DNA of 43,407 nt from NCBI GenBank assembly GCA_919903025.1, contig CAKKSE010000087.1, positions 4,318-47,724 of the forward strand. The letters run 5' to 3'. Below, piece by piece: positions 27,518 to 43,299 of the stretch. The notes under the pieces are model-generated. The model was not told the DNA's origin. It was given only the letters and a program-made list of their open reading frames with translations, and searched no databases. Source of the DNA: Nitrospiria bacterium (GTDB lineage: Bacteria; Nitrospirota; RBG-16-64-22). A program made the translations under genes and the position numbers. Positions within the stretch are counted from its first letter, which is position 1, and the number at the start of each line of letters is the position of its first letter.

Positions 27518-28891
27518 TTGGTTCGGTTGGATGAGGCGCAAGGGTGGAAAAAGAGGCGGCCGCCGATTGTCGCGTGGATCGTCGGGGCCGCGTGGCTGAT
27601 GATGTCGATTGGAATGGCCGCGGCGGCCGAAGGGGCGGAGGCGGCCCCCGCGTCGTGCGTGACGGCGAAGTGCCATGAGAAGATGGGGAAGGCGTCCTTC
27701 GTCCACGTTCCGGTGGCGGCAGGGATGTGCACGTTCTGCCACAACCAGCCGAACCCCGCGAAGCACGCGTTCAAGGACGCCCAGAAGGGGGCCGATCTTT
27801 GCTACATGTGTCATCCTCGCAAGGACACGAAAGCGGTCGTTCATGCGCCGGTCAAAGCGGGCCAGTGCTCCTTTTGCCACGACCCCCACCAGTCTCAGAC
27901 GAGCAAGTTCAGGCTCAAGATCGTGCCGCCGGAGAAACTCTGCTTCACCTGCCACCAGGACAACATGACGAGCCAGAAGTTCGTTCACGGCCCCGTCGCC
28001 GCCGGTGCCTGCACGGTCTGCCACAATCCCCACGAATCGCCGTACCCCTACCGGGTGGAGAAGAAGGGAAACGATCTTTGCCTAATGTGCCACACGGACA
28101 AGGCCGAGGCCCTCCTGGCGAAGAAGTACACGCACCCCCCGGTCAAGGAGAAGTGCACGAACTGTCACTCGCCGCACGCGACCCCGCATCCGTTTCAGCT
28201 CAAAGCGGCGGTCCCGGCGCTCTGCTTCGGGTGCCACAAGGACAAGGAGCAGTACGTGGCGGCCGCCCGCACGAAGCACGAAGCCCTCTCGCTCGGGAAA
28301 TCGTGCGTCAACTGCCACGACCCGCACGTGGCGGACCTTCCCAAACAGCTCGCCGCGGCTCCCATGGACCTCTGCTTCAAGTGCCACGACAAGGAGCTGG
28401 ACACGCCCACGGGCAAGATCATCAACATGAAGAAGTGGATCGAGGAGAACCCGATCTGGCACGGCCCGATCAAGCAGAAGGACTGCGCGGCCTGTCACAA
28501 CCCTCATGGGTCCGACAACTTCCGGATCCTCAAGAAGTTCTTTCCCCGGGAGTTCTACACCTCTTTCGAGGTGGAGAAGTACGCGCTCTGCTTCAATTGC
28601 CACGAGCAAACGCTCGTCCTGGACTCTCAGACCACGACGCTGACGGATTTCCGGAACGGCGACGCGAACCTGCACTTCAAGCACGTGAACAAGATAGAGA
28701 AAGGGCGGACGTGCAGGGCCTGTCACGAGCTGCACGCGTCGAAGCGTCCAAAGCGGATGCGCGAAGCCGTCCCCTTCGGGGCCTGGGAGATCCCGATCAA
28801 TTACGAGAAGACAAAGACGGGCGGCCGGTGCGCGCCGGGATGCCACGTTCCCCGGGCCTACGACCGCGACAAAGCGGTTGTGAACCGGTGA
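27518..28891 (+). CDS. Multiheme c-type cytochrome (13 CXXCH plus CX4CH and CX3CH)
   Basis: A 457-residue exported cytochrome of the doubled-CXXCH type. A basic N-terminus and hydrophobic segment (IVAWIVGAAWLMMSIGMAAAA) act as a signal sequence. Thirteen CXXCH motifs follow, many as CxxCHxPH in alternating pairs spaced about 25-45 residues. Before them is CVTAKCH (CX4CH) and after them CAPGCH (CX3CH), possible noncanonical heme sites, so 13-15 hemes. The start is TTG 27518, placed after GGAGGAGGGAG. It is the first gene after the sigma-54 promoter; its stop overlaps the TPR gene (GTGA). A role as periplasmic electron carrier is inferred. Confidence 0.92.
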   Translation: MVRLDEAQGWKKRRPPIVAWIVGAAWLMMSIGMAAAAEGAEAAPASCVTAKCHEKMGKASFVHVPVAAGMCTFCHNQPNPAKHAFKDAQKGADLCYMCHPRKDTKAVVHAPVKAGQCSFCHDPHQSQTSKFRLKIVPPEKLCFTCHQDNMTSQKFVHGPVAAGACTVCHNPHESPYPYRVEKKGNDLCLMCHTDKAEALLAKKYTHPPVKEKCTNCHSPHATPHPFQLKAAVPALCFGCHKDKEQYVAAARTKHEALSLGKSCVNCHDPHVADLPKQLAAAPMDLCFKCHDKELDTPTGKIINMKKWIEENPIWHGPIKQKDCAACHNPHGSDNFRILKKFFPREFYTSFEVEKYALCFNCHEQTLVLDSQTTTLTDFRNGDANLHFKHVNKIEKGRTCRACHELHASKRPKRMREAVPFGAWEIPINYEKTKTGGRCAPGCHVPRAYDRDKAVVNR

Positions 28892-29430: not shown

Positions 29431-30524
29431 AGACAGTGCCCGCCGCCGCCGCGTTGTTTTGTCTCGCCTGTGCGTCACTCCTGCTCGCGCCCCGGGCCGG
29501 GGGGGCCTTGACGAAGGTCCAGGCCGGGATGAAGGCCCCGGGGTTCGTTCTCAAGACCCTCGAAGGAAAGCCGCTCGCTCTTGAAAAGAACCTCGGGCGA
29601 AAGGGAACGGTCGTCGCGTTCTGGGCGACCTGGAGCCCCGGCTCTTCGAGGCTCCTCGCGCGCCTTCGGTCGTTCCACGCCGAGCATGGCGGGGAGGGAC
29701 TCGCCGTCATCGGCGTCAACGTCGAGAACCAGACGATTGGACTCGAGGACCGCGAAAAAATCCGCAAGTTCGCCGCCGATCTCAAGGTCGGCTTTCCCAT
29801 TCTCCTGGACGATCGCCTTTCCATATTTCACCGCTACGGCGTCGTGGCCGTCCCTTCGACCGTCGTTCTCGACGACAAGGGAATCGTCGTGTTCGAGCTC
29901 TCGGGTCTTTCCCTGATCGGGGGGGAGGAGCTCTTCGACCGAATCTCGTCGATCGTCGGCGCGGGGCGGCCAGCCGCCCCGCCGGCCCTCGCCTACCATC
30001 CCGACGAACGAGCGGTTCGGGAGTACAATCTGGGACGGCAGATGATCGAGAAGGGAATGACGGAGGCAGGCCGGGCGATCCTTCTCAAGGCGGCTGACCG
30101 AGACCCCAACTTCGTTCCGCCCGTCCTGCTGGTCGCGCGGCTCCTCCGGGAAGCGGGCCGGCTGGAGGAGGCGGAAGCGCTCACGGCCAGGTCCCTGGAG
30201 CGGATGCCGAAGAACGCCCAACTCGAAAGCGATCTGGCCCTAATCCGTCTCGCCCAGGGACGGACGGAGGAGGCGGCGAGGATCCTGTCCGAGGTCATCC
30301 GGCGCGACCCGGAGTACGCGCCGGCCCACTGCTACCTTGGACGCGCGCTCAAGCAGATCGGGGACCGGGAAGGCGCCATCAGGGAGTGCCGTCTCTCCCA
30401 GTCGCTGAATCCTCACAACGCGGAGTCGTTCGAGCTCTCCGCGGAGACGATCGAGGCGATGGGAGACCTAAAGCAGGCCGCGGCCGATTACCGGAAGGCC
30501 GTCGAACTGATTGCCGGATTCTAA
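29427..30524 (+). CDS. Exported thioredoxin-fold (TlpA/AhpC-like) protein with C-terminal TPRs, lacking active-site cysteines
   Basis: A 365-residue protein with a signal peptide (about 1-27). Residues about 33-175 form a TlpA/peroxiredoxin-like thioredoxin fold (APGFVLKTLEGKPLALEKNL, VVAFWATWSPGSS, VVAVPSTVVLDDKG). The active site reads W69-S70-P71-G72-S73 where relatives have WCxxC, so both catalytic cysteines are replaced by serine while the cis-proline VPST is kept. About four TPR repeats occupy 195-360. It cannot act as a dithiol oxidoreductase; a chaperone or apocytochrome-binding role is more likely. It is preceded by the TPR gene with ATGA overlap. Confidence 0.87.
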   Translation: MKTVPAAAALFCLACASLLLAPRAGGALTKVQAGMKAPGFVLKTLEGKPLALEKNLGRKGTVVAFWATWSPGSSRLLARLRSFHAEHGGEGLAVIGVNVENQTIGLEDREKIRKFAADLKVGFPILLDDRLSIFHRYGVVAVPSTVVLDDKGIVVFELSGLSLIGGEELFDRISSIVGAGRPAAPPALAYHPDERAVREYNLGRQMIEKGMTEAGRAILLKAADRDPNFVPPVLLVARLLREAGRLEEAEALTARSLERMPKNAQLESDLALIRLAQGRTEEAARILSEVIRRDPEYAPAHCYLGRALKQIGDREGAIRECRLSQSLNPHNAESFELSAETIEAMGDLKQAAADYRKAVELIAGF

Positions 30525-30655
30525 TTTTTGGGATATCTTCATCCATGCAGGGCGTCCGGAACCTTTCATTTCGTTCCCCCCGGACCGCCGCCGAACCCCG
30601 TTTCGGAAGGACTCCCGATCGGTGCGCCTTTCTTCGCGTGGATTCAAGCGATCAC

Positions 30656-32221
30656 ATGGTTCGTGAGCGCGGTGTCGACATGGATGCGGGCGTGTCGCGT
30701 CTGAAGGTCAAGTTCCTCGTTTCGTTCCTCTCGCTGTTGATCCTGTTTTCGGGGGTCTTCCTCTGGCTCAACCTCCGCACGCACTCGGCCCTGATGTTCG
30801 AGACCGGCCGGGACCGGGCCGAGCTCCTCGTCGAGACGGCCAAGAAGGGGATCATCGCGATCATGCTGGAGGGGAAGGGAAGGGAGGTCCAGAACCTGAT
30901 CGAGACGTTTGCGGCCCACGGGGAGGTCGCGTCGATCCGGATACTGGGAGTCGACGGCCGGATCCTTCACTCCGCCCGGCGGGAGGAGATCGGGGGGGTC
31001 GATCGCCCCGCTCTGGCGCGCCATCGGTCCGAGGATCCGTCCCGCGTATTCACGGACGTCCGGGACGGCCGGACGATCTTCCACATCCTCACGCCCATCT
31101 ACAACCAGCCGAAGTGTCATGCCTGTCACGGCTCGAGCCACGAGATCCGGGGGATCCTGAGCGTCGAGGCCTCGATGGAGAAGTGGGACGCCGAGATCGC
31201 GCAGATGGAAAAGACGCTTCTCCTGTCTTCGGTCGTTCTGATCGTCCTGGTCCTCGCGGCGGGCGCGGGTCTTCACACGCGGATCGTCGACCGGCCGATG
31301 GGCCGGCTCATGGAGACGATCCGCAAGGTGCGCGACGGAGATCTGTCCGCCCGCGTCCCGATCCGGACGAAGGATGAATTCGGGATCGTGGGGAGCGCGT
31401 TCAATTCCATGGTCGGCGAGGTCGAGCGGACGCGGCGCGATCTGGAGGAATACCACTACAAGCAGATGGAACGGGCGGACCGGCTGGCTTCGATCGGCGA
31501 GCTGGCTTCGAGCGTCGCGCATGAGATCAAGAACCCCCTCGCCGGGATCAGCGGGGCCATCCAGATCTTGTCGCGGCGGGAAGGGAACCCGCCTCCCGAG
31601 ATCCTCCAGGAGATCCAAGAGCAAGTGGTTCGAGTCGATCGCACGGTCAAGAACCTCCTGTCGTACGGCCGGCCGGCCTCGCCCCGGCTCGTTTGGACGA
31701 ACGCGAGGGACGTTCTCGAACGGTCCCTTTTCCTCGTCCGCCATATGGCCGAGCGGAACCGGGTGCACGTGGAGACCCGGTACGACGATCTCGACGTGCC
31801 GATCTTCGTGGACCCGGAGCAGATGCACCAGGTATTTCTCAACATCTCGCTGAATGCCATCCAGGCCATGCCGCACGGGGGAATCCTGGAGGTATCGGCC
31901 GCCGTCAAGCTCTACGACGAACGGAACCTGGTCGAGCGGGCCGTCACGGACCTCGACGCGGAGCGTCCCGAGTGGTTGGAGATCCGGTTCCAGGACAACG
32001 GCGTGGGAATCCCTCCCGAGAGTCTGGGGCAGATCTTCGAGCCGTTCTTCACGACGAAGGCGCACGGAACGGGTCTGGGCCTGTCGATCTGCCGCCAGAT
32101 CCTGCGCCTGCATCAGGGGATGATCGCCGTTTCCAGCGAGCCGGGGCGCGGGAGCTGTTTCACGGTGTTCCTGCCCGTCGCGGACAGGCCGTCGGAGGGA
32201 TCGCAGAATGCCCACGCCTAG
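30656..32221 (+). CDS. Sensor histidine kinase with a c-type heme motif in its periplasmic domain
   Basis: A 521-residue membrane kinase from ATG 30656; ATG 30680 is an alternative and neither has a strong ribosome-binding site. TM1 is near 18-38 ([20 protein letters not shown]). The periplasmic domain (about 39-185) carries C154HAC157H158 in [13 protein letters not shown], a heme-attachment motif. TM2 is near 188-210, then a HAMP domain. HisKA has the phosphoacceptor His289 in [13 protein letters not shown]. HATPase_c has [37 protein letters not shown]. It overlaps the response regulator by 14 bases. It likely senses redox state or a heme ligand and controls the sigma-54 promoters of the locus (inference). 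Confidence 0.9.
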
Positions 32222-33578
32222 GGTCCTGGTCGTCGACGACGAGCACTTGATCCGCTGGTCGCTGGAACAGCATCTCGAGAAGAACGGGTACGAGGTCATC
32301 ACGACCGGCAATGGAAGGGAGGCCGTTCAGATCGTCCAGGACGTTCTCCCCGAGGCCGTTCTCCTGGATATTCAGATGCCGGGGATGGACGGGATCGAAG
32401 TCCTCCGGGCGATCCGCGAGATCGACCCGGACGTCCCGGTCGTGATGATCACGGCCCATGGGGGCGTCGGGTCGGCCGTGGCCGCGATGAAGCTCGGCGC
32501 CTATGACTACGTCGAGAAGCCGTTCGATATCGAGCGAATCACCGTCCTTCTGGCCAACGCGCTCGAGCGCAGGACGCTCAAGGGGGAAGTGACCCGGTTT
32601 CGGTCGGAGCAGGGCCGGCGTTACGGCCTCGAACGAATGGTCGGCGAGAGCCCGGCGATCCGGCAGGTGAAGGAGACGATCGAGAAGATCGCCCGGAGCG
32701 ACGCGGCGACGGTCCTCCTCCAGGGGGAAAGCGGAACGGGGAAAGACCTGGCGGCGAAGATCGTCCATTACCAGAGCGCCCGGGGGGACTTCCCGTTCGT
32801 CGAGATCAACTGTTCGGCCCTGCCCGAGACCCTGGTCGAGAGCGAGCTGTTCGGCCACGAGCGCGGAGCCTACACCGACGCGAAGACAATGCGGCGGGGG
32901 TTGTTCGAGCTGGCTGACGGCGGGACCGTCTTCCTGGACGAGATCGGCGACATGCCGCTCGGTCTCCAGCCCAAGCTCCTGAAGGTCATCGAGGAAAAGA
33001 CGTTCCGGCGGATCGGGAGCGCGCGTGACATCCGGGTGGACGTCCGCGTCATCGCCGCGACGAACAAAAATCTGGCTGAGTTGGCGCGCGCGCGGGCGTT
33101 CCGCGAGGACCTCTTCTACCGTCTCAACGTCATCCCCCTGCGTCTTCCGCCACTCCGCGAGCGAAGGGAGGACGTCCCGTCGCTCGTCCGCCACTTCGTC
33201 GAAGCGTTCAGCCGGGAGTGCCGGAAACCGATCCGGGGGGTCGACCCGTCGGCGGAGCGCCTTCTCGCGGCGTACGACTGGCCGGGAAACGTCCGGGAGC
33301 TCCGGAACGTCATCGAGAGAGCGATCATTCTGGAGAACGCCCCGTCCATCCTGCCGACGCACCTTCCCCCCGAGATCGTATCTCCCGTTCCTCCGGCGCC
33401 GGAGGAACGGGGGGGGATCGTCGTCACCGAAAAGGGCGTGTCGCTCGAGGAGGTGGAGAAGGAGCTCATCGGTCAGGCGCTCAATCTGGCCGCAGGGAAC
33501 CAGGTCAAGGCGGCGCGGCTTCTCCACCTCACGCGGGACGTTCTCCGGTACCGGATGAAGAAGTATGGTTTCCTGTAA
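32208..33578 (+). CDS. NtrC-family sigma-54-dependent response regulator
   Basis: A 456-residue activator. The receiver domain (1-120) has the acidic pocket D10-D11 and phosphoacceptor D54 (AVLLDIQMPGMDG). The AAA+ domain (about 145-375) has Walker A GESGTGK at 173-179, FLDEIGDM as Walker B, and RLPPLRERREDVP. The sigma-54 contact loop reads GAYTDA at 220-225, where GAFTGA is usual. The C-terminal Fis-type helix-turn-helix spans about 415-456 (QVKAARLLHLTRDVLRYRMK). It is coupled to the kinase upstream and to a cytochrome gene downstream (TAATG). Two sigma-54-like promoters in the locus are its likely targets. Confidence 0.95.
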   Translation: MPTPRVLVVDDEHLIRWSLEQHLEKNGYEVITTGNGREAVQIVQDVLPEAVLLDIQMPGMDGIEVLRAIREIDPDVPVVMITAHGGVGSAVAAMKLGAYDYVEKPFDIERITVLLANALERRTLKGEVTRFRSEQGRRYGLERMVGESPAIRQVKETIEKIARSDAATVLLQGESGTGKDLAAKIVHYQSARGDFPFVEINCSALPETLVESELFGHERGAYTDAKTMRRGLFELADGGTVFLDEIGDMPLGLQPKLLKVIEEKTFRRIGSARDIRVDVRVIAATNKNLAELARARAFREDLFYRLNVIPLRLPPLRERREDVPSLVRHFVEAFSRECRKPIRGVDPSAERLLAAYDWPGNVRELRNVIERAIILENAPSILPTHLPPEIVSPVPPAPEERGGIVVTEKGVSLEEVEKELIGQALNLAAGNQVKAARLLHLTRDVLRYRMKKYGFL

Positions 33579-34579
33579 TGAGGCCCGGCGCGGCGCTGAT
33601 CGCTTGGGCGGCGATCCTTCTTTTCCCTGCGGCGGCGGAGTCGTGGGAGATCGTTTTCCCGTCCGAGGGGACGCTGTTCGATGACGTTCCATTTCTGAAC
33701 CTTGTCGCGGAACGGCCGCCCCGCGCAAGCGGGGTCGAACGAATCGACGTGCGGGTGAACGGGCGGCTCGTGGAGACGATCGATCTCACGGAGAGAGGCC
33801 ACGCCGGAAGCTTTCTGTGCCGCGGCCTTCGCGTGGAACCCGGCCCGGTGACCCTCCGGGTGGAAGCGTCGGGCCCGGACGGGGACCGGCGGACCGAGGT
33901 CCGCGAAGTCAGGGTGTTCGTCCGCTCCCTGCTCAACCCGGGGTCTCGGAACGCGCCGCCGGGTTTCGCGGGCAAGCCGTTCCACACGCCGGAAAAAGAG
34001 CGGCGTTGTTCGGGGTGCCACCGGATGGACCCGTCGCCGGGCGATCGGAAACCGTCCGAGCCGAAGATGTCCTCTTGCTTCGCTTGTCACCGGAGGATCG
34101 TCGCCTTCCGCGAGGCGCACGGGCCGGCGGCGGTGTGGGACTGCCTTTCGTGCCACGATCCGGAGAGCCGGCCGGCCAGGTACGCCACTGCCCAGCCCAA
34201 CAGCGCGGTCTGCTACGAGTGCCACCGGCGGCAGGCGGAGGAGAGGAACAAGCTCCCTTACATCCACGGTCCGACGTCGACGGGCAAGTGCACGATCTGT
34301 CACAGTCCGCACGGAACGGACAACCCTTTCTGGCTCAAGAAGCCCGTCTGGGACCTTTGCACGGCCTGTCACGCCGAAAAGGCGGATGGGCGCCACGTCG
34401 TGGCGGGGTTCGTCTTCGGCGAGACGCACCCCACGCGGGGCCGGCCAGACCCGACCCGTCCGGGAAAGGACCTCTCTTGCGCCTCGTGCCACAACCCGCA
34501 CTCGGCGCCATCGAAGTTTCTTTGGAACTTCGGTGTCACGCGGCGGCTGGACCTTTGCCGCGTCTGCCACAAGAAATAA
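33578..34579 (+). CDS. Octaheme c-type cytochrome with N-terminal beta domain
   Basis: A 333-residue exported protein. Signal peptide about 1-20 (ALIAWAAILLFPAAAES). Residues about 22-120 look like an Ig-like beta domain (ERIDVRVNGRLVETIDL, VTLRVEASGPDG). From about 145 there are eight CXXCH motifs: CSGCH, CFACH, CLSCH, CYECH, CTICH, CTACH, CASCH, CRVCH, several followed by xPH as in doubled-CXXCH proteins. The ATG overlaps the regulator stop by one base, so the sensor system and this cytochrome share a transcript. The beta domain may bind a partner or substrate surface. Confidence 0.92.
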   Translation: MRPGAALIAWAAILLFPAAAESWEIVFPSEGTLFDDVPFLNLVAERPPRASGVERIDVRVNGRLVETIDLTERGHAGSFLCRGLRVEPGPVTLRVEASGPDGDRRTEVREVRVFVRSLLNPGSRNAPPGFAGKPFHTPEKERRCSGCHRMDPSPGDRKPSEPKMSSCFACHRRIVAFREAHGPAAVWDCLSCHDPESRPARYATAQPNSAVCYECHRRQAEERNKLPYIHGPTSTGKCTICHSPHGTDNPFWLKKPVWDLCTACHAEKADGRHVVAGFVFGETHPTRGRPDPTRPGKDLSCASCHNPHSAPSKFLWNFGVTRRLDLCRVCHKK

Positions 34580-34780: not shown

Positions 34781-35758
34781 ATGAAGGGGATCGTGCTTAC
34801 CGTCGCGATCGCGGCCACTGCTTCCGCGGGGGTGGCGGGGATGCCGTCCGTCATTCCGCCCGAAGGCGACCTGATCCGCCGGACGCACGAGATTCCGGAA
34901 CTCCTGTCCACGGGGAGGCTGACGCGCGGCCAGATTCCAAACCCGCACTGGCGGGGTGACGGCTGTCCGGCCTGCCACGCCGGAGATCCCGACTCCGGTG
35001 CCCCCCGGCTTTCCAACCAGGATATCAACCGCCTCTGCAACACCTGTCATGAGTCGCTCTCGGCCCAGATGTACATTCACGCCGTCGGAATGGTCCCCTC
35101 CAAGGAGAAGCAGGACAGGATGCCCGGCCCGTTCCGCGAGGCCGTGAAGCGGGGCGGGGGCGCGGTGACCTGCATCGCCTGCCACGACCTGCCGATGCAG
35201 TGCAGGAAGGAGCGCTGGTCCGAGCGGCGCGAGAACCCCCTTTTCTTCCGGGAAGGGCCGTACGCGCGCCGGACGGAGCTGTGCATCCGGTGCCACGATC
35301 CCCGGCACTACGCACGGCTCAACGCCCACGACCAAGTCACGAACGACGGGGCGCTCCGGACCGACGTTTGCCTGCTCTGCCACAGCGTGACGCCGAAACG
35401 CGATGAAGTCCGGAGCATCGACGACGTTACGTTCAAGGTGACGGACGATCTCACAGCCCTCTGCACGGGATGCCATCCGTGGCGGCCCCATCCGGGAGGA
35501 GAGTTCGCTGCATACGACAAGAAGAGCCTCAACCACCTCGTAATTCCCTCGGCCGGGATTCGAAAGCAGATCGGTTTGACCGAGAAAGAAAATGACGTCA
35601 TCCTTCCGCTCGAGCCGGGGTCGGGCCGCATTTTCTGCGCGACTTGCCATAACCCCCATGAGCGGGGCGTACAGAGAATGAGCCGTGCCGACAGGGGCGC
35701 TGACAGCCCTCAGCGGCTTCGCCTGTCGAACATTTGCTCGGGTTGCCATGTCAAGTAA
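34781..35758 (+). CDS. Octaheme c-type cytochrome
   Basis: A 325-residue exported cytochrome. ATG 34781 follows GAGGGGAGA. Signal peptide about 1-20 (IVLTVAIAATASAGVAGM). Eight CXXCH motifs: CPACH, CNTCH, CIACH, CIRCH, CLLCH, CTGCH, CATCH, CSGCH. Spacing is irregular, with long heme-free stretches in the middle and between hemes 6 and 7, unlike the compact doubled-CXXCH proteins nearby. It is the first gene behind the second sigma-54 promoter. Its end is overlapped by an in-frame upstream ATG of the next gene, and the two are close enough to be co-translated. Confidence 0.92.
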   Translation: MKGIVLTVAIAATASAGVAGMPSVIPPEGDLIRRTHEIPELLSTGRLTRGQIPNPHWRGDGCPACHAGDPDSGAPRLSNQDINRLCNTCHESLSAQMYIHAVGMVPSKEKQDRMPGPFREAVKRGGGAVTCIACHDLPMQCRKERWSERRENPLFFREGPYARRTELCIRCHDPRHYARLNAHDQVTNDGALRTDVCLLCHSVTPKRDEVRSIDDVTFKVTDDLTALCTGCHPWRPHPGGEFAAYDKKSLNHLVIPSAGIRKQIGLTEKENDVILPLEPGSGRIFCATCHNPHERGVQRMSRADRGADSPQRLRLSNICSGCHVK

Positions 35759-35777: not shown

Positions 35778-36911
35778 ATGAACCGCACGATGGGACGAAG
35801 GTTTCTCGCGGCCGTCTGTCTCGTCTTTCTCGCTACAGCGGGAGGCGGAGGCGCCCGTGCGGCGGAGCCCTTCGACGACGAAGAGAACTGCCTCATGTGC
35901 CACAAGTATCCGAAGATGGGGCGGGTCACGGAGGACGGCGTGCTGAGATCGTACACCATCGTCCCGGAGATCTTTTCCCGGACCGTCCACCGGAACGTGC
36001 CGTGCCGGGACTGCCATACGGAAATCAAGGAGCTCCCGCACAAGCCCGTCACGAAAGGCGTGTCGTGCGACACCGAGTGTCACTCGATTAATAATCCGGC
36101 GACGGGCCGGCCTTTCAGCCACAAGATCATCGTGGAGGTCTACCGGAAGAGCAACCACGGTCGTGAAAAGAACGAGGAGGGGCCGGACAGGGACAAGCCG
36201 TACTGCATCACGTGCCATACGAACCCGCTCTACAACCCGGTGGAAGAACAGCCGCCGGGCCGGATCGTTGACCGTTGCGTCGTCTGCCACGAGAAGCGGA
36301 AGTTCGTGAACGCCTGGTACAACCACACGAGCCGTCGAATCCGCGAGGTCCGGCGGTCATCCGAGGAGATCGTGGTTCTGTGCTCCTCCTGCCACGGAGA
36401 CAAGAAGCTCGTGGACCGCCGTATCGAGACGGCGGCGAAAGAAGGCCGGTCCATGGGTCGGAAGTTCCCGTTGGCCGTGGAGTCTTACGACGCGAGCTTC
36501 CATGGGAAGATGATACGTTACGGGTTCGCGAAGGCCGCGAACTGCCTGGATTGCCACGCTGACGCGGGGAACTACTACCTGAGCGTTCACGAGATGAGAC
36601 CGTCCCGGGACGAGCGGTCTTCAGTCGGCCGGGAGAACCGGGTGAAGACCTGTCAGCGGTGCCACCCGTACGCCGGAGCGAGCTTCGGCGCGATCGATCC
36701 TCATCCGACGGCCGACCGGACGGACAACCCTTTCCGCCACTACATCGAGAAGGGTTACGGCCTGGCCGGATATCTCGTTCCAACCGGGATGCTGGCGCTG
36801 GCGATGTTCGAGACGATCGGCCGGAGGAGGGACGGGGTCTCCTGGATGCTCCGCCACGGGACCTCCTGGCGTCGCCGCAGCCGGCGCGGAAGGGACCGGC
36901 ATGGAGCTTGA
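35778..36911 (+). CDS. Membrane-attached multiheme cytochrome c (7 CXXCH plus one CX3CH)
   Basis: A 377-residue exported cytochrome. ATG 35778 is preceded by GGGG at seven bases and gives a clean signal peptide (RRFLAAVCLVFLATAGGG); ATG 35748, inside the previous gene, would lengthen it. Motifs: CLMCH, CRDCH, CDTECH (CX3CH), CITCH, CVVCH, CSSCH, CLDCH, CQRCH. A C-terminal hydrophobic segment (GLAGYLVPTGMLALAMFETI, about 325-345) is followed by a very basic tail, so the protein is probably anchored to the inner membrane with hemes outside. With the cytochrome b downstream it could form a quinol-oxidising complex. Confidence 0.9.
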   Translation: MNRTMGRRFLAAVCLVFLATAGGGGARAAEPFDDEENCLMCHKYPKMGRVTEDGVLRSYTIVPEIFSRTVHRNVPCRDCHTEIKELPHKPVTKGVSCDTECHSINNPATGRPFSHKIIVEVYRKSNHGREKNEEGPDRDKPYCITCHTNPLYNPVEEQPPGRIVDRCVVCHEKRKFVNAWYNHTSRRIREVRRSSEEIVVLCSSCHGDKKLVDRRIETAAKEGRSMGRKFPLAVESYDASFHGKMIRYGFAKAANCLDCHADAGNYYLSVHEMRPSRDERSSVGRENRVKTCQRCHPYAGASFGAIDPHPTADRTDNPFRHYIEKGYGLAGYLVPTGMLALAMFETIGRRRDGVSWMLRHGTSWRRRSRRGRDRHGA

Positions 36912-37152: not shown

Positions 37153-38100
37153 ATGATCCTTTCGGGAGAGGCGAGACGGGTCCTTGATCTGTCGATTCGG
37201 CAGAACGGCCTGTCGGAGAGCGGGAAACGGGATGTGGAGGACTTGCTGGCCATGATGCCGGCGGACCGCGTCCTTCTGTACAAGAACGTGGATTCGAACC
37301 CCGTCGGGGACCTCCCCCGCTACTCCATCCACATCCGGATCCAGCACCTCCTGATCTTCACGACGTTCCTGCTCCTGGCTTTCACGGGAATGCCCATCCA
37401 TTACTTCGACACCTTCTGGGCGGGGCCGCTGAACGCCATCTTTGGCGGCGTCGGGGTGACCCGCGTCGTCCATCGGACGCTGGCCGTGGTCATGATCGCC
37501 GCCATGGTCTACCATTTCGCCGCGATTCTCCTGGGGACCCTGTTGCGGATTCGGGGAAAGCGGTTCGACGTGCGCCGGACCATCGTGCCGGCCATGAAGG
37601 ATCTGCGTGATTTCAAGGAGGACATGTCGTATGTCGCCGGACGGCGCGACCAGCGGCCGGAAATGGACAAGTTCATGTACAAGCAGAAGATGCACTACTT
37701 TGCGGCGGGAGGCGGGAATCTTATTCTCGTGCTGTCCGGGTCCTCGTTCCTCTTTCCGGAGATGTGGGCGAGTGTACTTCCGAAGGCCGCGGCAGCCTAT
37801 TTTCAGGAAATCATGCGGATGTCCCACCCGCACGAGGCGCTCCTGGCCCTGCTGGTCATCGCCTTCTGGCACTGGTACAACGTCCACCTGGCGCCTGGAC
37901 GGTTTCCGATGCAGTGGAGCTATCTCACGGGCAAGATCACGCGCGAACACCAGATCGAGGAGCACTTCCTGGAATACGTCCGGTGTCTGGTCGAGGTTCC
38001 GGAGGAGCGCCGCACCTTGCGGGCGATGCTGGAGGCGAGAGGGTTGGCGGATCACGGGGAGAGTCCGAGGGGGTTCATCGCGGAAGAAGCGGGGCGATGA
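37153..38100 (+). CDS. Integral membrane di-heme-type cytochrome b
   Basis: A 315-residue protein with four predicted transmembrane helices at about 65-85, 105-130, 182-202 and 226-246, the layout of b561/formate-dehydrogenase-gamma-like cytochromes. Histidines suited to axial heme b ligation lie in or near the helices: His65, His107, His121, His181, His227 and His240. The N-terminal 55 and C-terminal 65 residues are polar and probably cytoplasmic. ATG 37153 follows GGGAGG. Between a membrane multiheme cytochrome and a triheme membrane cytochrome, it most likely passes electrons from the quinone pool to periplasmic hemes. The stop overlaps the next small gene (ATGA). Confidence 0.88.
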   Translation: MILSGEARRVLDLSIRQNGLSESGKRDVEDLLAMMPADRVLLYKNVDSNPVGDLPRYSIHIRIQHLLIFTTFLLLAFTGMPIHYFDTFWAGPLNAIFGGVGVTRVVHRTLAVVMIAAMVYHFAAILLGTLLRIRGKRFDVRRTIVPAMKDLRDFKEDMSYVAGRRDQRPEMDKFMYKQKMHYFAAGGGNLILVLSGSSFLFPEMWASVLPKAAAAYFQEIMRMSHPHEALLALLVIAFWHWYNVHLAPGRFPMQWSYLTGKITREHQIEEHFLEYVRCLVEVPEERRTLRAMLEARGLADHGESPRGFIAEEAGR

Positions 38101-38219: not shown

Positions 38220-39293
38220 ATGAGCGAGGACACCGCGCTCGGGACGTTTTTCATTATCAGCACGGTCCTGTTGTTCGTCCTCCTGAGCGTTGCCGGCCTG
38301 TTGATCGTGGACCACCGGACACGGATTCCAGGCGGTCCGAAGGAGGGCTGGTTCGGCCTTTCGGGGCCGAAACGGAATCATCCGTTAGCGGCTCTGATTG
38401 TCGCGGGCGCGCTCCTCTTCGTCATCGGGAGCCTTCTGGTTCTCATCACGGCGGCTCATCTGCGGGAAGCGGGCTTCTTCAGGGATTCGGACCCGCCGGA
38501 GATCCTGGCGAAGGTGCGGGCGGAAAGAATCCTCGAGCGTCTTCGCCGTTTTCACAACCTTCCGGTGAGCGACCCGCTGACGAAAGGACGAAAGACGGCT
38601 TGTTTCCACTGCCACGGGGACTTCCCGCACTCGAAAGAGCCGATGATGCGGAGCCTGCTCAATATGCACACTCAATTCGTCGGATGCATGACGTGCCACG
38701 CCGACGACCGGAAAGTGCCGGAGAAATCGCTCCGCCTGCGGTGGGTCAACGCTTCGGATATCAAGGTCTTGGGACAGCCGTTCGGCCTCGACAACGATCC
38801 CGTGACCGGAGGCCTGAAACCCACGGACGACTATTACTCTCAGATCGTCGCCTACGCGGAGGTCGGCGGAAAAGAGGGACTGCTGGAGATCCTCGACGAA
38901 GCCCCCGAGACGCAGGATTTCCTTCGGACCCGGGATCGGATGTCGGATCAGGACCGGGAGGCAGTGAAGAAGACTTTTCACCGGCTGGTCAGTCCGAAGG
39001 GGCGGCTCTGCACGCGATGCCACGCCGATCCCAAAGACAGCTATCTTCCTTATCGGGCGCTCGGCTTCTCGGAATCGCGGATCAAGGACCTGACGCATAT
39101 GAACATCATCGGCCTGGTGGAGAAGTACCGGGAGTTCTACATACCTACGCTGCTCAAGTCAGAGAAATCCCTGCCTTCCACGGAGATCCTGGCCGGGCCG
39201 GGTCGGCCCCGGTCCGCGCCTTCGCCCGACCTGAAGAGGGATCCGCGTTCCTGGTGGCGGCAGACCTATGACCCGCCCGGCGGAGAGAGATGA
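38220..39293 (+). CDS. Triheme membrane cytochrome c
   Basis: A 357-residue protein with two N-terminal transmembrane helices (FFIISTVLLFVLLSVAGLLIV at about 10-30 and ALIVAGALLFVIGSLLVLIT at about 57-76) and a periplasmic domain with three heme motifs, CFHCH, CMTCH and CTRCH. The third is over 100 residues after the second. ATG 38220 follows GGTGCAGAG. It is likely the c-type subunit docked on the cytochrome b (37153-38100). A proline-rich C-terminal tail ends the protein. The stop overlaps the NHL gene (ATGA). Confidence 0.88.
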   Translation: MSEDTALGTFFIISTVLLFVLLSVAGLLIVDHRTRIPGGPKEGWFGLSGPKRNHPLAALIVAGALLFVIGSLLVLITAAHLREAGFFRDSDPPEILAKVRAERILERLRRFHNLPVSDPLTKGRKTACFHCHGDFPHSKEPMMRSLLNMHTQFVGCMTCHADDRKVPEKSLRLRWVNASDIKVLGQPFGLDNDPVTGGLKPTDDYYSQIVAYAEVGGKEGLLEILDEAPETQDFLRTRDRMSDQDREAVKKTFHRLVSPKGRLCTRCHADPKDSYLPYRALGFSESRIKDLTHMNIIGLVEKYREFYIPTLLKSEKSLPSTEILAGPGRPRSAPSPDLKRDPRSWWRQTYDPPGGER

Positions 39294-40234
39294 CTCGTCG
39301 CGGGTTGGAGAGGGGCCGTGTTTTCCTCGGGGTCGTTGTCCTTGTCGGAGGGTGTGCTTGGCCGGCAGACGCCTCTCCGCTGAAGATCCGAGACATCCGG
39401 CCCCTCTTCCAAATCACGGAGACTCCGGCCGGACCGCTCGCGCTGCCGACGGACGTTGCGGTTGGGCCCCAGGGGAGGATCTACGTCGTCGACGGGGGGA
39501 ACCACCGGGTTCTGGCCTTCGACAGGGCGGGGCGATACTTGTTTTCCATCGGGCGAGAAGGATCGGCGGCGGGGGAGTTCAGGGGCCCGGTCGGGATCGG
39601 CGTCGATGGCGCGGGCCGCGTCTACGTGGCGGATTCAGGGAACCATCGGATCCAGGTGTTCGACGCGAGCGGCCGTATTCTTCACGGGTTCCGCGTCACG
39701 AGCGGGGGCGCCGCGGTTCGACCCGTGGATGTGGCCGTGGATGGCCGCGGCGGCCGGCTCTACGTGTCGGGCAGCAACAACCACAAGGTGATGGTTTTCA
39801 CGCCCGACGGGAAGCCCGTTCGCGAATGGGGGGGCGAAGGAGCGGGCCGGGGCGAGTTCCGGTACCCCGCGACGGTGGCCATCTCCGGGGAGGGCCGGGT
39901 CCACGTTGTCGACGTCCTGAACACGAGGGTGCAGGTTTTCGACGGGAGGGGGCGGTTTCTGGCGGACGTGGGCGAGTGGGGCGTTCTCCCCGGCCAGTTC
40001 TTCCGGCCGAAGGGGGTGGCCCTCGACCGGCGGGGCCGCGTTTACGTGACCGACAGCTACATGGACCTGATCGAGGTTTTCGACGAGTCGGGCCGGTTCC
40101 TTCACGTCCTGAGCGGCGAGGGCCGAATCAAGAAGTTCACGTCTCCCGCCGGCATCGCAATCGACACGGACGACCGGTTGATCGTGGCCGAGGTGCTGGC
40201 GAACCGGGTTTCCGTCTTCTCCCTGGGGCGGTGA
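39290..40234 (+). CDS. Exported NHL-repeat beta-propeller protein
   Basis: A 314-residue protein with a signal peptide ending in a lipobox-like VGGC near residue 21, so it may be a lipoprotein. Six NHL repeats follow, each with a pattern such as GRIYVVDGGNHRVLAFDRAG, GRVYVADSGNHRIQVFDASG or GRVYVTDSYMDLIEVFDESG, enough for a complete six-bladed propeller. Such propellers bind proteins or ligands. Placed directly before the 24-heme cytochrome (GTGA overlap), it may be its scaffold or surface anchor; this is inferred from position. Confidence 0.9.
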   Translation: MTRRGLERGRVFLGVVVLVGGCAWPADASPLKIRDIRPLFQITETPAGPLALPTDVAVGPQGRIYVVDGGNHRVLAFDRAGRYLFSIGREGSAAGEFRGPVGIGVDGAGRVYVADSGNHRIQVFDASGRILHGFRVTSGGAAVRPVDVAVDGRGGRLYVSGSNNHKVMVFTPDGKPVREWGGEGAGRGEFRYPATVAISGEGRVHVVDVLNTRVQVFDGRGRFLADVGEWGVLPGQFFRPKGVALDRRGRVYVTDSYMDLIEVFDESGRFLHVLSGEGRIKKFTSPAGIAIDTDDRLIVAEVLANRVSVFSLGR

Positions 40235-43200
40235 GTCCGATGTTTATCGCGATTCCGGCGTGGTCCCGGCGTCTCATGGTCTGGCTCGCGGTGGCCGCCG
40301 CGGCCGCCGCGGCCGTCTCGCGGGAAGCGGGGGGGGCGCGGGAGGTCGCCGCCAAGCGCGAATGCGCCACGTGCCACATCGCGTGGATCACGGACTTCAA
40401 ACGCGCGGAGGTGACCCCCCTCGTTCCCTATGAGCCGATGCCGGTGGTGGAGTCCGGCCGACAGGACGCGGCGAGCACCGAACGCATGTGCTTCTCCTGC
40501 CATGACGGGTTCGTCCGGGATTCACGCTCTCTTTGGAAGAACAGGGGTCATTCGCACCCGGTCGGCGTCCGGCCCTCGTCCCGGATCAAGTCCCCCGCCA
40601 TCGAGGGAAAACCGGTCTTCCCCCTGAACGAGGACGGAAAGGTCTACTGCGGCACCTGTCACACGGCGCACAGCGTGGCCTGGGGGCCGGGAGAGAAGTC
40701 GGTCTTCCTGCGCGCCCGGAACACCGACTCAAGCCTTTGTGTTGCCTGCCACCTCGATTCGAGCACGGGCGCAAAGGAGGGGAATCATCCCGTTTTCAAG
40801 CCCCCGCGGGAAGTGTCGGCTTCCCTGCGAGAGGCGGGCGGGCGGCTCGGCGAAGGAGGGATCGTCATCTGCGAGTCGTGCCACCGGTCGCACGGCGCGC
40901 CCGAGGCCGGGATGCTGGCCGTCCGCAACGACCGGTCCCAGTTGTGCGGGGCCTGCCACGCCGACCTGGACGCGAAGGACCGGGTTGGAGCGGCCCGATC
41001 GGGAACGCACCCGGTCAACTTCCCGCTGGGCGGAGACGGTCTCGCCGATGACCTGCGCGCGCGGGGAGGCCGCCTGGGGCGGGGCGGCGAGTTGGTTTGT
41101 CAGACGTGTCACAAGGCGCATGGCGGAGAGGCGGGAGCCGGAATCCTCGTGATGAAGAACAACGGTTCCGCCTTGTGCCAGACCTGCCATGGCAAGGAGC
41201 GGAAAGTCGCCGGCGGAAAGCACGACTTGGCCGTGGCGGCGGCGGACCGGAAGAACGTGAGGGGCCAGCCGGCCAGCCGGGCGGGGGTCTGCAGTGCGTG
41301 CCATCTTCCGCACGGCGGGCAAGGTCCCAAGATGTGGGCTCGGGAAGTCGCGCGGGAAGAGGAGCCCATGGCGGCGCTTTGTCTCACCTGCCACGGACAA
41401 GGGGAATCCGGAGGCGCCAAGTCCGTCGGGCCGCACAGCCATCCCGTCGGCAGGAAAATGGAAAAAGGGGGCCCTCCTGCCGGGCTTCCGCTGTTTACGC
41501 GGGAAGGAATCAAGGCGGCGCTTCCGTCTCAGGGCGCCGTCACCTGCGCGACGTGCCACGATCCCCATCAGTGGGACCCCGCGGATGCCGGCCGTGTCGC
41601 GGGCGTGAAGGAGGAAGGGAACGGTCTGAACAGCTTCCTGCGGAAGCCCAACGATCGGGACATGAGTCTTTGCCGGGAATGCCACGAGGAGAAATGGGAC
41701 TACCGGGGAACGAAGCATGACATGGCCGTCGCGGCCCCCGGGGATCGGAACGCGCGGGGTGAGACGGCCACGGAGGCCGGGCCGTGCGGGTCGTGCCACG
41801 AAGTCCACAATGGGAAGGGACCCCGCATGTGGGCCCGGGAGCCGCTTCAAGGCGTGGATCCCGTGTCATCCACGTGTCTGTCGTGCCACAACAGCGAGGG
41901 CGTGGCCAAGAAGAGTCTAATCGGCAAGCATACCCACCCTGTTAATGTCCCGCTCGGACGCGCGGGAACCGGGTCGGCCCGCGAGACGGGAGTCGCTGGG
42001 GCCGGAAAGAAACAGATTTCCGCCCTCCCCTTGCACGACGCCCAGGGCCGGCCTTCGCGGGACGGCGGAAACGTAACGTGCGGAACCTGCCACGATCCCC
42101 ATCGGTGGGCCCCGTCGCCCGGAACGGGCAGCCAGGTCCAAAAGGACCCGCGGGAAGCGAAGGGAGACGGCCGAACCAGCTTCCTGCGAATGAGGGCCGG
42201 CGGAGAGGAAGGTCTTTGCCTCGCCTGCCACGGGGACAAGAGGGCCGTCGCGTCATCACGGCACGACCCGGCCGCGTCCGGTGCCCTGGAGAAGAACGCA
42301 AGGGGACAGACGGCGGCGGAGAGCGGCGTGTGCGGCGCGTGTCACTTCTCGCACAACGGCATGGCCCCGCGAATGTGGGCCCGTGAGCCGGGCCCGGGGC
42401 GCGGACCGCTGGAGGGACTCTGCACGGGGTGCCATCGGACGGGAGGAATGGCCGAGGGGAAGATCGCCGGGACAAAGAGCCATCCCCTGGCGGCCGATTC
42501 TGGGGGACTTGCGGGACGTTCCTCCCTGCCGTTGTATGACGCGGAGGGAAGAAGGAGCCATGATCGCGGACGGATGGAATGCGGAACCTGCCACGATCCC
42601 CACCGATGGGATCCGGCGGGCAAGGGAAACGCCGCGCCGGGAGGAAAAGAAGTCGACGGAGACGCTCGAAACAGCTTCTTGCGTCTGCCGGCGGCGCCCG
42701 TCCCGGTCCTCTGCAACGATTGTCACAAGGAAAAGGGGCTGGTCCAGGGGACGGATCACGATCTCAACGTGACGGGGCCGCGTTCGGTGAACGGACACGG
42801 GAAGACCGTAGAACAGTCAGGGGTCTGCGGCCAGTGTCATGCTCCTCACAACGCTCTGAGTTGGTTGTCCCTATGGGCCCGGATTCCCGGCGAAGGGGCG
42901 GACGGCATGGAGAAGCTTTGCCGGAGCTGCCACGACGCGGGCCAGGCCGCCGGAAACAAAGTCCCGCTTAAGCTTCGGCATCCGGACACGATCAAGGCGC
43001 TCTGGCGCGACGAGCGCGTGTCGCGGGGTGGATTGTTGCCGCTCTTCTCGCGGGACGGGTCTCGGAATCCGGCCGGTCTGATTACATGTCCGACGTGCCA
43101 CGACCCCCACCGCTGGAGTCCATTCATGGAGGGGGGAGGCGCGGGGCGGAACGAAGAAGGAGACGCGCGGACCAGCTTCCTGCGCGGCGTGAGCGATTTC

Positions 43201-43299
43201 TCGATCTGCACCGACTGCCACGGTTTGGAAGGCTTGTTCCGGTACAAGTACTTCCACGGAGAGACGTCACGGAGGAAGCACCCCTTGTATCAGAGGTAA
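40231..43299 (+). CDS. Large 24-heme c-type cytochrome with tandem tetraheme modules
   Basis: A 1022-residue exported cytochrome from GTG 40231 (overlapping the NHL stop); ATG 40240 is an alternative. The signal segment is LMVWLAVAAAAAAAV. It contains 24 CXXCH motifs. Hemes 1-6 are in an N-terminal region with shorter diheme units. From about residue 290 a tetraheme module repeats four times and then half again, at about 149-178 residue spacing. Its landmarks in order are CxTCHDPHxWxP, SFLR, CxxCH with KHD, CGxCHxxHNGxxPRMWARE, CxxCH and (S/T)HPV. This is a modular wire-like architecture, probably for long-range or extracellular electron transfer (inference). No transmembrane segment follows the signal. 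Confidence 0.94.
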   Translation: MSPMFIAIPAWSRRLMVWLAVAAAAAAAVSREAGGAREVAAKRECATCHIAWITDFKRAEVTPLVPYEPMPVVESGRQDAASTERMCFSCHDGFVRDSRSLWKNRGHSHPVGVRPSSRIKSPAIEGKPVFPLNEDGKVYCGTCHTAHSVAWGPGEKSVFLRARNTDSSLCVACHLDSSTGAKEGNHPVFKPPREVSASLREAGGRLGEGGIVICESCHRSHGAPEAGMLAVRNDRSQLCGACHADLDAKDRVGAARSGTHPVNFPLGGDGLADDLRARGGRLGRGGELVCQTCHKAHGGEAGAGILVMKNNGSALCQTCHGKERKVAGGKHDLAVAAADRKNVRGQPASRAGVCSACHLPHGGQGPKMWAREVAREEEPMAALCLTCHGQGESGGAKSVGPHSHPVGRKMEKGGPPAGLPLFTREGIKAALPSQGAVTCATCHDPHQWDPADAGRVAGVKEEGNGLNSFLRKPNDRDMSLCRECHEEKWDYRGTKHDMAVAAPGDRNARGETATEAGPCGSCHEVHNGKGPRMWAREPLQGVDPVSSTCLSCHNSEGVAKKSLIGKHTHPVNVPLGRAGTGSARETGVAGAGKKQISALPLHDAQGRPSRDGGNVTCGTCHDPHRWAPSPGTGSQVQKDPREAKGDGRTSFLRMRAGGEEGLCLACHGDKRAVASSRHDPAASGALEKNARGQTAAESGVCGACHFSHNGMAPRMWAREPGPGRGPLEGLCTGCHRTGGMAEGKIAGTKSHPLAADSGGLAGRSSLPLYDAEGRRSHDRGRMECGTCHDPHRWDPAGKGNAAPGGKEVDGDARNSFLRLPAAPVPVLCNDCHKEKGLVQGTDHDLNVTGPRSVNGHGKTVEQSGVCGQCHAPHNALSWLSLWARIPGEGADGMEKLCRSCHDAGQAAGNKVPLKLRHPDTIKALWRDERVSRGGLLPLFSRDGSRNPAGLITCPTCHDPHRWSPFMEGGGAGRNEEGDARTSFLRGVSDFSICTDCHGLEGLFRYKYFHGETSRRKHPLYQR

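Follow-up and report, generated by a model that had tools for sequence, protein, structure and literature searches.

Four OmcE-like tetraheme units in tandem within a 24-heme cytochrome of a Nitrospiria bacterium: a putative single-chain periplasmic wire

For most electroactive bacteria it is not settled how electrons travel through the periplasm between quinone-linked cytochromes and outer-membrane conduits, and the question is raised by the last gene of a 43,407-nt stretch of DNA from a Nitrospiria bacterium (contig CAKKSE010000087.1; the whole stretch that was analysed is called the window below). The open reading frame (ORF) at 40240-43299 on the + strand encodes a product of 1,019 residues with exactly 24 CXXCH motifs, in agreement with the 24 hemes claimed in a first-pass annotation of this DNA. 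All of its cysteines (48/48) lie inside these motifs, according to the sequence count, and there are 42 residues per heme. What kind of electron carrier could such a protein be? By their sequence, two thirds of the hemes (16/24), all of them C-terminal, sit in four head-to-tail units that resemble the protomer of the OmcE nanowire.

The first-pass annotation had described six N-terminal hemes followed by four and a half tandem tetraheme modules. The cysteines that it gave as module starts (41098, 41545, 42079, 42580 and 43087) are exactly the first cysteines of hemes 7, 11, 15, 19 and 23. When the modules M1-M4 were aligned pairwise and compared with shuffles in which every CXXCH was held fixed, the z values ranged from 9.3 to 18.4, and the C-terminal half-module gave 8.6 to 10.7 against M2-M4 but only 2.1 against M1. 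Since the module alignments beat the CXXCH-fixed shuffles, the repeat is genuine and is not produced by the heme motifs themselves; the similarity of the modules reached beyond CXXCH, so that the dot-plot outcome which the first-pass annotation had named as a refutation did not occur. The tandem tetraheme repeat thus stands, and a register offset by half a module fits better than the one proposed. The first "module" is atypical: its hemes 7-8 lack the W and SFLR motifs and are akin to the N-terminal dihemes. Judged by the motifs, the stronger register begins at KHD and consists of eight N-terminal hemes, four complete tetraheme units and a C-terminal His cap, the order within a unit being KHDL - CxxCHxxH - (L/M)WAR - CxxCH - HPV - LPLF - CxTCHDPHxW - SFLR - CxxCH. 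The parts of the protein are as follows.

40240-40341, + strand: N-terminal signal peptide, end approximate (sequence; AlphaFold2 helix 7-29).
40363-41190, + strand: eight N-terminal hemes, arranged as four dihemes (motif count, OmcE profile, ligand alignment).
41215-41685, + strand: OmcE-like tetraheme unit I, KHD H328, hemes 9-12 (motifs, OmcE profile).
41710-42231, + strand: OmcE-like tetraheme unit II, KHD H493, hemes 13-16 (motifs, OmcE profile).
42256-42726, + strand: OmcE-like tetraheme unit III, RHD H675, hemes 17-20 (motifs, OmcE profile, structure model).
42751-43221, + strand: OmcE-like tetraheme unit IV, DHDL H840, hemes 21-24 (motifs, OmcE profile, structure model).
43222-43296, + strand: C-terminal cap with the invariant His1006, the predicted distal ligand of heme 24 (invariance; ligand role presumed).

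The likely start of the gene is the ATG at 40240, 5 nt after the stop codon of the preceding NHL gene (40232-40234), and a GTG at 40231 is possible. Neither a lipobox cysteine nor a membrane anchor was found in the 24-heme protein, all of its cysteines being part of CXXCH.

The motif order of the repeat unit is the same as that of Geobacter OmcE (PDB 7TFS) and of the chain in PDB 9YUQ: KHDL, CxxCHxxH, LWxR, CxxCH, HPV, LPLF, CHDPH/CHxxH, FLR, CxxCH. To compare the two, we used a hidden Markov model (HMM) of the OmcE family, which was made from twelve OmcE-type sequences, namely eleven from the fetched homologous loci (one of them a duplicate of L003) and the 7TFS chain. The 24-heme protein of the window reached 127.7 bits in total in successive in-order segments, and 50 CXXCH-preserving shuffles scored -6 bits or less. 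The clearest case was the homologue at locus L004, where KHDL-to-LWxR and C-terminal diheme segments take turns four times; in the window protein, hemes 2-4 of the N-terminal region also matched the OmcE profile in part. In the 8- and 13-heme proteins of the window the match was almost confined to the generic C-terminal paired-CXXCH diheme, and the other multiheme proteins in the window have essentially no KHDL-CxxCHxxH-LWxR segment. Profile-profile alignment (hhalign) of 237 units with the OmcE family gave a score of 141.9 over 137 columns (probability 99.7%), compared with maxima of 38 and 52 when the OmcE columns were permuted freely or within segments, CXXCH being kept in both cases. Moreover, when all PDB sequences were searched, 7TFS and 9YUQ were the top matches for both the whole-protein and the unit profiles, ahead of NrfA, OmcS and others. 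On this sequence evidence, each tetraheme unit is colinear with the OmcE protomer and homologous to it along its whole length. A single OmcE-type protomer is nevertheless ruled out by the 1,019 residues and 24 hemes: OmcE is a free tetraheme protein of ~230 residues that polymerises, whereas here four units and eight extra hemes form one chain.

The ligands of the hemes were followed through the 18 aligned rows that have 24 hemes; besides the window protein these are 16 distinct homologues and one further row from a second copy of the sister genome. Beside the 24 proximal His, 23 distal His are invariant across these rows. Heme 1 alone has no conserved distal His, and Trp49 and Met83 are invariant in the same alignment; in the region of hemes 1-2 (window 40363-40527) these two residues would make either His/Met ligation or an entry site possible at heme 1. 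The KHD His is invariant 11 residues after hemes 8, 12, 16 and 20, and His1006 stands 12 residues after heme 24. According to PMC12954529 and PMC9473688, the interfacial heme of OmcE and OmcS filaments takes one His from a neighbouring subunit. In the 24-heme protein, by contrast, the corresponding KHD His follows in the same chain, and we infer that the KHD His of each next unit would ligate the last heme of the unit before it. The linear, wire-like heme stack suggested by the first-pass annotation is therefore plausible from the OmcE homology together with the ligand inventory. If the packing of OmcE holds, with its 34 A rise per four-heme subunit (PMC12954529), the 24 hemes would span about 20 nm. 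The AlphaFold2 model of the last two units (III+IV) is confident as one body (pLDDT 87.1, pTM 0.84; md8fc8e74dba2).

Homologues with different numbers of modules were found. Most have 16, 18, 20, 22 or 24 hemes, and the number of residues per heme is constant at 41-43. Their heme spacings appear to fit two, three or four tetraheme units behind three to five N-terminal dihemes (N-terminal hemes + units: 24 = 8+16, 20 = 8+12, 18 = 6+12, 22 = 10+12, 16 = 8+8). The exceptions are a few loci cut by contig ends, one protein with 28 hemes and a different spacing, and L051 and L078, which have 18 hemes with other spacings. The N- and C-terminal ends are conserved among the homologues and the internal units are variable. 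In the unit tree, all units of the polyheme proteins fall on one side of a split from the OmcE/UetA/UetJ domains (ultrafast bootstrap 93), forming one clade apart from the free OmcE-type proteins, which supports the growth by internal duplication that had been supposed. The last units group across phyla as a single orthologous clade (support 98), and so the architecture is old, although some duplication within lineages came later. Internal units also group by lineage among the Desulfobacterota and some of the Nitrospirota rows. The dihemes cluster by position across species, which likewise indicates that most of the duplication is old. At locus L074 (9878-14035) two 16-heme homologues follow one another in tandem; here the whole gene is duplicated in addition to the internal repeats.

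With the Betaproteobacteria rows L004, L008 and L046, the last from the culturable Noviherbaspirillum denitrificans TSA40, the window protein shares 51-52% identity, and with the Nitrospirota rows L016, L022 and L061 it shares 38-39%; this higher identity to another phylum may reflect horizontal transfer. A survey of the phylum gave a match in 4/198 genomes at E <= 1e-60, and one genome of the same genus had no match; the distribution is thus patchy. A tblastn search against plasmids gave no match.

Which partners could such a chain have? The genes upstream of it in the window are these.

27518-28891: separate cytochrome with 13 CXXCH plus CX3CH and CX4CH motifs, a paired-CXXCH diheme array that gives no match to the KHDL-LWxR part of the OmcE profile.
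30386-32221, + strand: sensor histidine kinase with a CXXCH-bearing Mcp40H-20-type sensor domain (PF21563 1.7e-7; CHACH at residue 244), the real start probably further in.
32208-33578, + strand: NtrC-type sigma-54 response regulator, candidate cluster regulator (Pfam).
33572-34579, + strand: 8-heme exported cytochrome A, start uncertain (motifs).
34781-35758, + strand: 8-heme exported cytochrome B (motifs).
35778-36911, + strand: cytochrome with 7 CXXCH and one CX3CH (CDTECH), the latter possibly an eighth heme (motifs).
37153-38100, + strand: b-type cytochrome, Ni_hydr_CYTB / formate dehydrogenase gamma-like, candidate quinone site (Pfam 2e-8; TIGR01583 4.5e-10, below that model's cut-off).
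38220-39293, + strand: inner-membrane 3-heme cytochrome with two N-terminal hydrophobic segments (motifs, sequence).
39290-40234, + strand: NHL-repeat beta-propeller gene, whose start overlaps the 3-heme gene by 4 nt (Pfam NHL 1.3e-38).

Among the 57 homologous loci with enough upstream sequence, the 5.2 kb upstream of the polyheme gene held the b-type cytochrome in 53, the 7-heme cytochrome in 52, the NHL gene in 50 and the 3-heme cytochrome in 48. By its gene neighbourhood, the 24-heme gene belongs to a conserved operon with an inner-membrane b/c-cytochrome module. The histidine kinase gene adjoins that of the NtrC-type regulator, directly upstream of the cytochrome genes; the kinase, with a single CHACH in its sensor domain, probably senses redox state or a ligand through a c-type heme and so controls these genes.

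On the other side, the window ends at the contig end just after the 24-heme gene. In the sister contig (L003) a 5-heme OmcE homologue (2.1e-28 to 7TFS) begins ~260 nt after the 24-heme gene and is followed by three triheme c7 genes, an NHL gene, a 4-heme OmcE homologue (2.9e-32) and a putative outer-membrane barrel, for which there was no Pfam match and whose barrel nature is presumed. Another contig of the window's own genome, C167 (L090), carries the same gene set from its contig end, together with a PPIase-like gene and an undecaheme-type gene; the Pfam match for the PPIase was made on the L015 copy, and the L090 copy was read by eye. The Uet pathway of Tenderiales and Gallionella comprises the tetraheme UetA, PPIase UetB, barrel UetC, trihemes UetDEG, NHL proteins UetHI and undecaheme UetJ (PMC10734462), and the L003 and C167 gene sets correspond to it by kind and order only. 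The 24-heme protein does not figure in the published list of Uet components (PMC10734462). In the Gammaproteobacterial loci L015 and L025 the polyheme gene precedes an OmcE-type 4-heme gene, then a rotamase gene, recognised by Pfam on L015, and an ORF of barrel size, and an OmcE-type gene lies immediately downstream of the polyheme gene in L003, L015, L019 and L025. As for UetJ itself, the undecaheme protein opens with a complete OmcE-like domain (L006 2718-4451, 8.7e-31 to 7TFS; L090 3-1724, - strand) and so looks like an OmcE fusion. In L043, L045, L060, L063, L065-L070 and L078, which are mostly Desulfobacterota, a second multiheme gene (7 to 15 hemes) directly follows the polyheme gene. 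The first-pass annotation was borne out as regards duplication, while the kinship with OmcE, the half-module shift and the inner-membrane and Uet context had escaped it.

Taken together, we favour, with modest confidence, the reading that the protein is an exported, non-lipidated, single-chain OmcE-like envelope wire that would link the quinone pool to the Uet conduit. A periplasmic location is inferred because the signal peptide comes without a lipobox or anchor and the inner-membrane neighbours are constant. One end of the wire would exchange electrons with the upstream inner-membrane module (the b-type, the anchored 3-heme and the 7/8-heme cytochromes) and, since it would meet a b-type cytochrome there, with the quinone pool; the other end would do so with the Uet-like outer-membrane set of putative beta-barrel, trihemes, OmcE-type cytochromes and undecaheme, so that the 24-heme protein may connect the inner- and outer-membrane systems. 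COX1-family oxidases and two dsrA-type genes are present in the genome and do not decide the direction of the electrons. More tentatively, and with rather less than even confidence, the protein may be a natural single-chain nanowire, in which OmcE-type protomers are fused head to tail, the ligation of hemes between subunits has become intramolecular, the number of units encoded (2 to 4) sets the length and dedicated ends dock to the quinone module and the Uet conduit. Several observations weigh against these proposals. In the protein of the window, scores are weak for some of the OmcE segments, and the AlphaFold2 model of the whole chain is moderate (pLDDT 74.5, pTM 0.63; residues 29-104 unreliable). 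Foldseek against PDB returned no OmcE match for either the whole model or that of the last two units; Foldseek and DALI are reported to miss OmcE and OmcS too, close homologues apart (PMC9473688, the OmcZ paper). The join of the window contig to C167 rests on synteny with the sister genome. Finally, an OmcE or Uet gene was seen within the fetched flanks in 29/57 loci and none in about half.

The principal alternative, which we regard as unlikely, is that the protein is secreted past the outer membrane as a surface or extracellular cytochrome, for example as the base, the tip or an adaptor of OmcE-type filaments whose genes lie downstream. The relationship of its units to an extracellular filament subunit and the four loci with an OmcE-type gene immediately downstream would fit this role, but the protein has no lipobox cysteine or membrane anchor, and the genes found beside it most regularly encode inner-membrane cytochromes, including at loci where an OmcE-type gene was not seen nearby. 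The lack of Uet-type genes within the fetched flanks of about half of the loci, the many hemes and the strong linkage to the b/c module would rather suit a periplasmic electron store (capacitor), serving mainly the inner-membrane module without wiring to the outer membrane. We consider this improbable, as the Uet/OmcE genes are directly downstream in the sister genome and the conservation of the terminal ends with variation of the internal units is what would be expected of a spanning element with two docking ends. Slightly more doubtful still is a generic paired-CXXCH diheme array whose likeness to OmcE reflects convergence or common ancestry and has no special structural meaning. Pfam does assign Paired_CXXCH_1 and other generic families, the Foldseek result points the same way, and even the 8- and 13-heme proteins of the window match the C-terminal diheme of OmcE. 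However, the OmcE profile finds KHDL-CxxCHxxH-LWxR in order, a segment that those proteins essentially lack, the profile-profile score is far above the CXXCH-preserving nulls, and OmcE-type chains come first in the whole PDB.

The envelope wire that we favour has relatives in kind. Tandem multiheme domains in one chain occur in the GSU1996-type polymeric triheme c7 cytochrome and in HmcA, which has four c3 domains. The units of GSU1996 are triheme c7 and those of HmcA tetraheme c3, whereas the units of the window protein are tetraheme and OmcE-like; a polymeric c7 of the GSU1996 type is ruled out by the four-heme period, as against tandem triheme units, and HmcA (NF045713) by 26.7 bits against a cut-off of 400. 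The OmcA/MtrC family (TIGR03507) was rejected at 49.9 bits against a cut-off of 209.3, and the DmsE and GSU2203 families scored far below their cut-offs. Identity with UetJ (11 or 12 hemes) is excluded by the 24 hemes and by the separate undecaheme-type gene. The porin-cytochrome cluster PCC3 also has large multiheme cytochromes that are proposed to be envelope-spanning wires, as is suggested here for the 24-heme protein. Its periplasmic subunits have 21, 24 and 27 hemes (PMC10734462), with about 22-39 residues per heme, and it includes a 5-TM inner-membrane protein with HX13H motifs (PMC5566968). Membership in PCC3 is ruled out by the 42 residues per heme of the window protein, and the inner-membrane partner in the window, a b561/FDH-gamma-like, Ni_hydr_CYTB-type cytochrome b, may also differ from the 5-TM HX13H protein. 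At locus L042 (17860-20605), an 18-heme homologue has downstream of it two PCC3-like genes, with 21 and 15 hemes and 25 residues per heme; the 21-heme gene was not matched by the search queries. The Cbc b/c quinone oxidoreductases of Geobacter likewise pair b-type with multiheme c-type cytochromes, Cbc5 comprising three cytochromes of the c type, one of the b type and a membrane protein (PMC11434368); the likeness is drawn from this description.

Tandem multiheme domains and OmcE-type nanowires are each already known. For OmcE-like units concatenated in one chain we found no description in the searchable literature, a search that did not extend to central papers on nanowires and on Uet. An OmcE-like wire fused from countable units would offer a defined object of variable length for studies of periplasmic wiring, and it bears on whether filament-forming cytochromes evolved from tandem proteins or gave rise to them. 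Moreover, it suggests that Uet clusters may have a dedicated inner-membrane partner operon.

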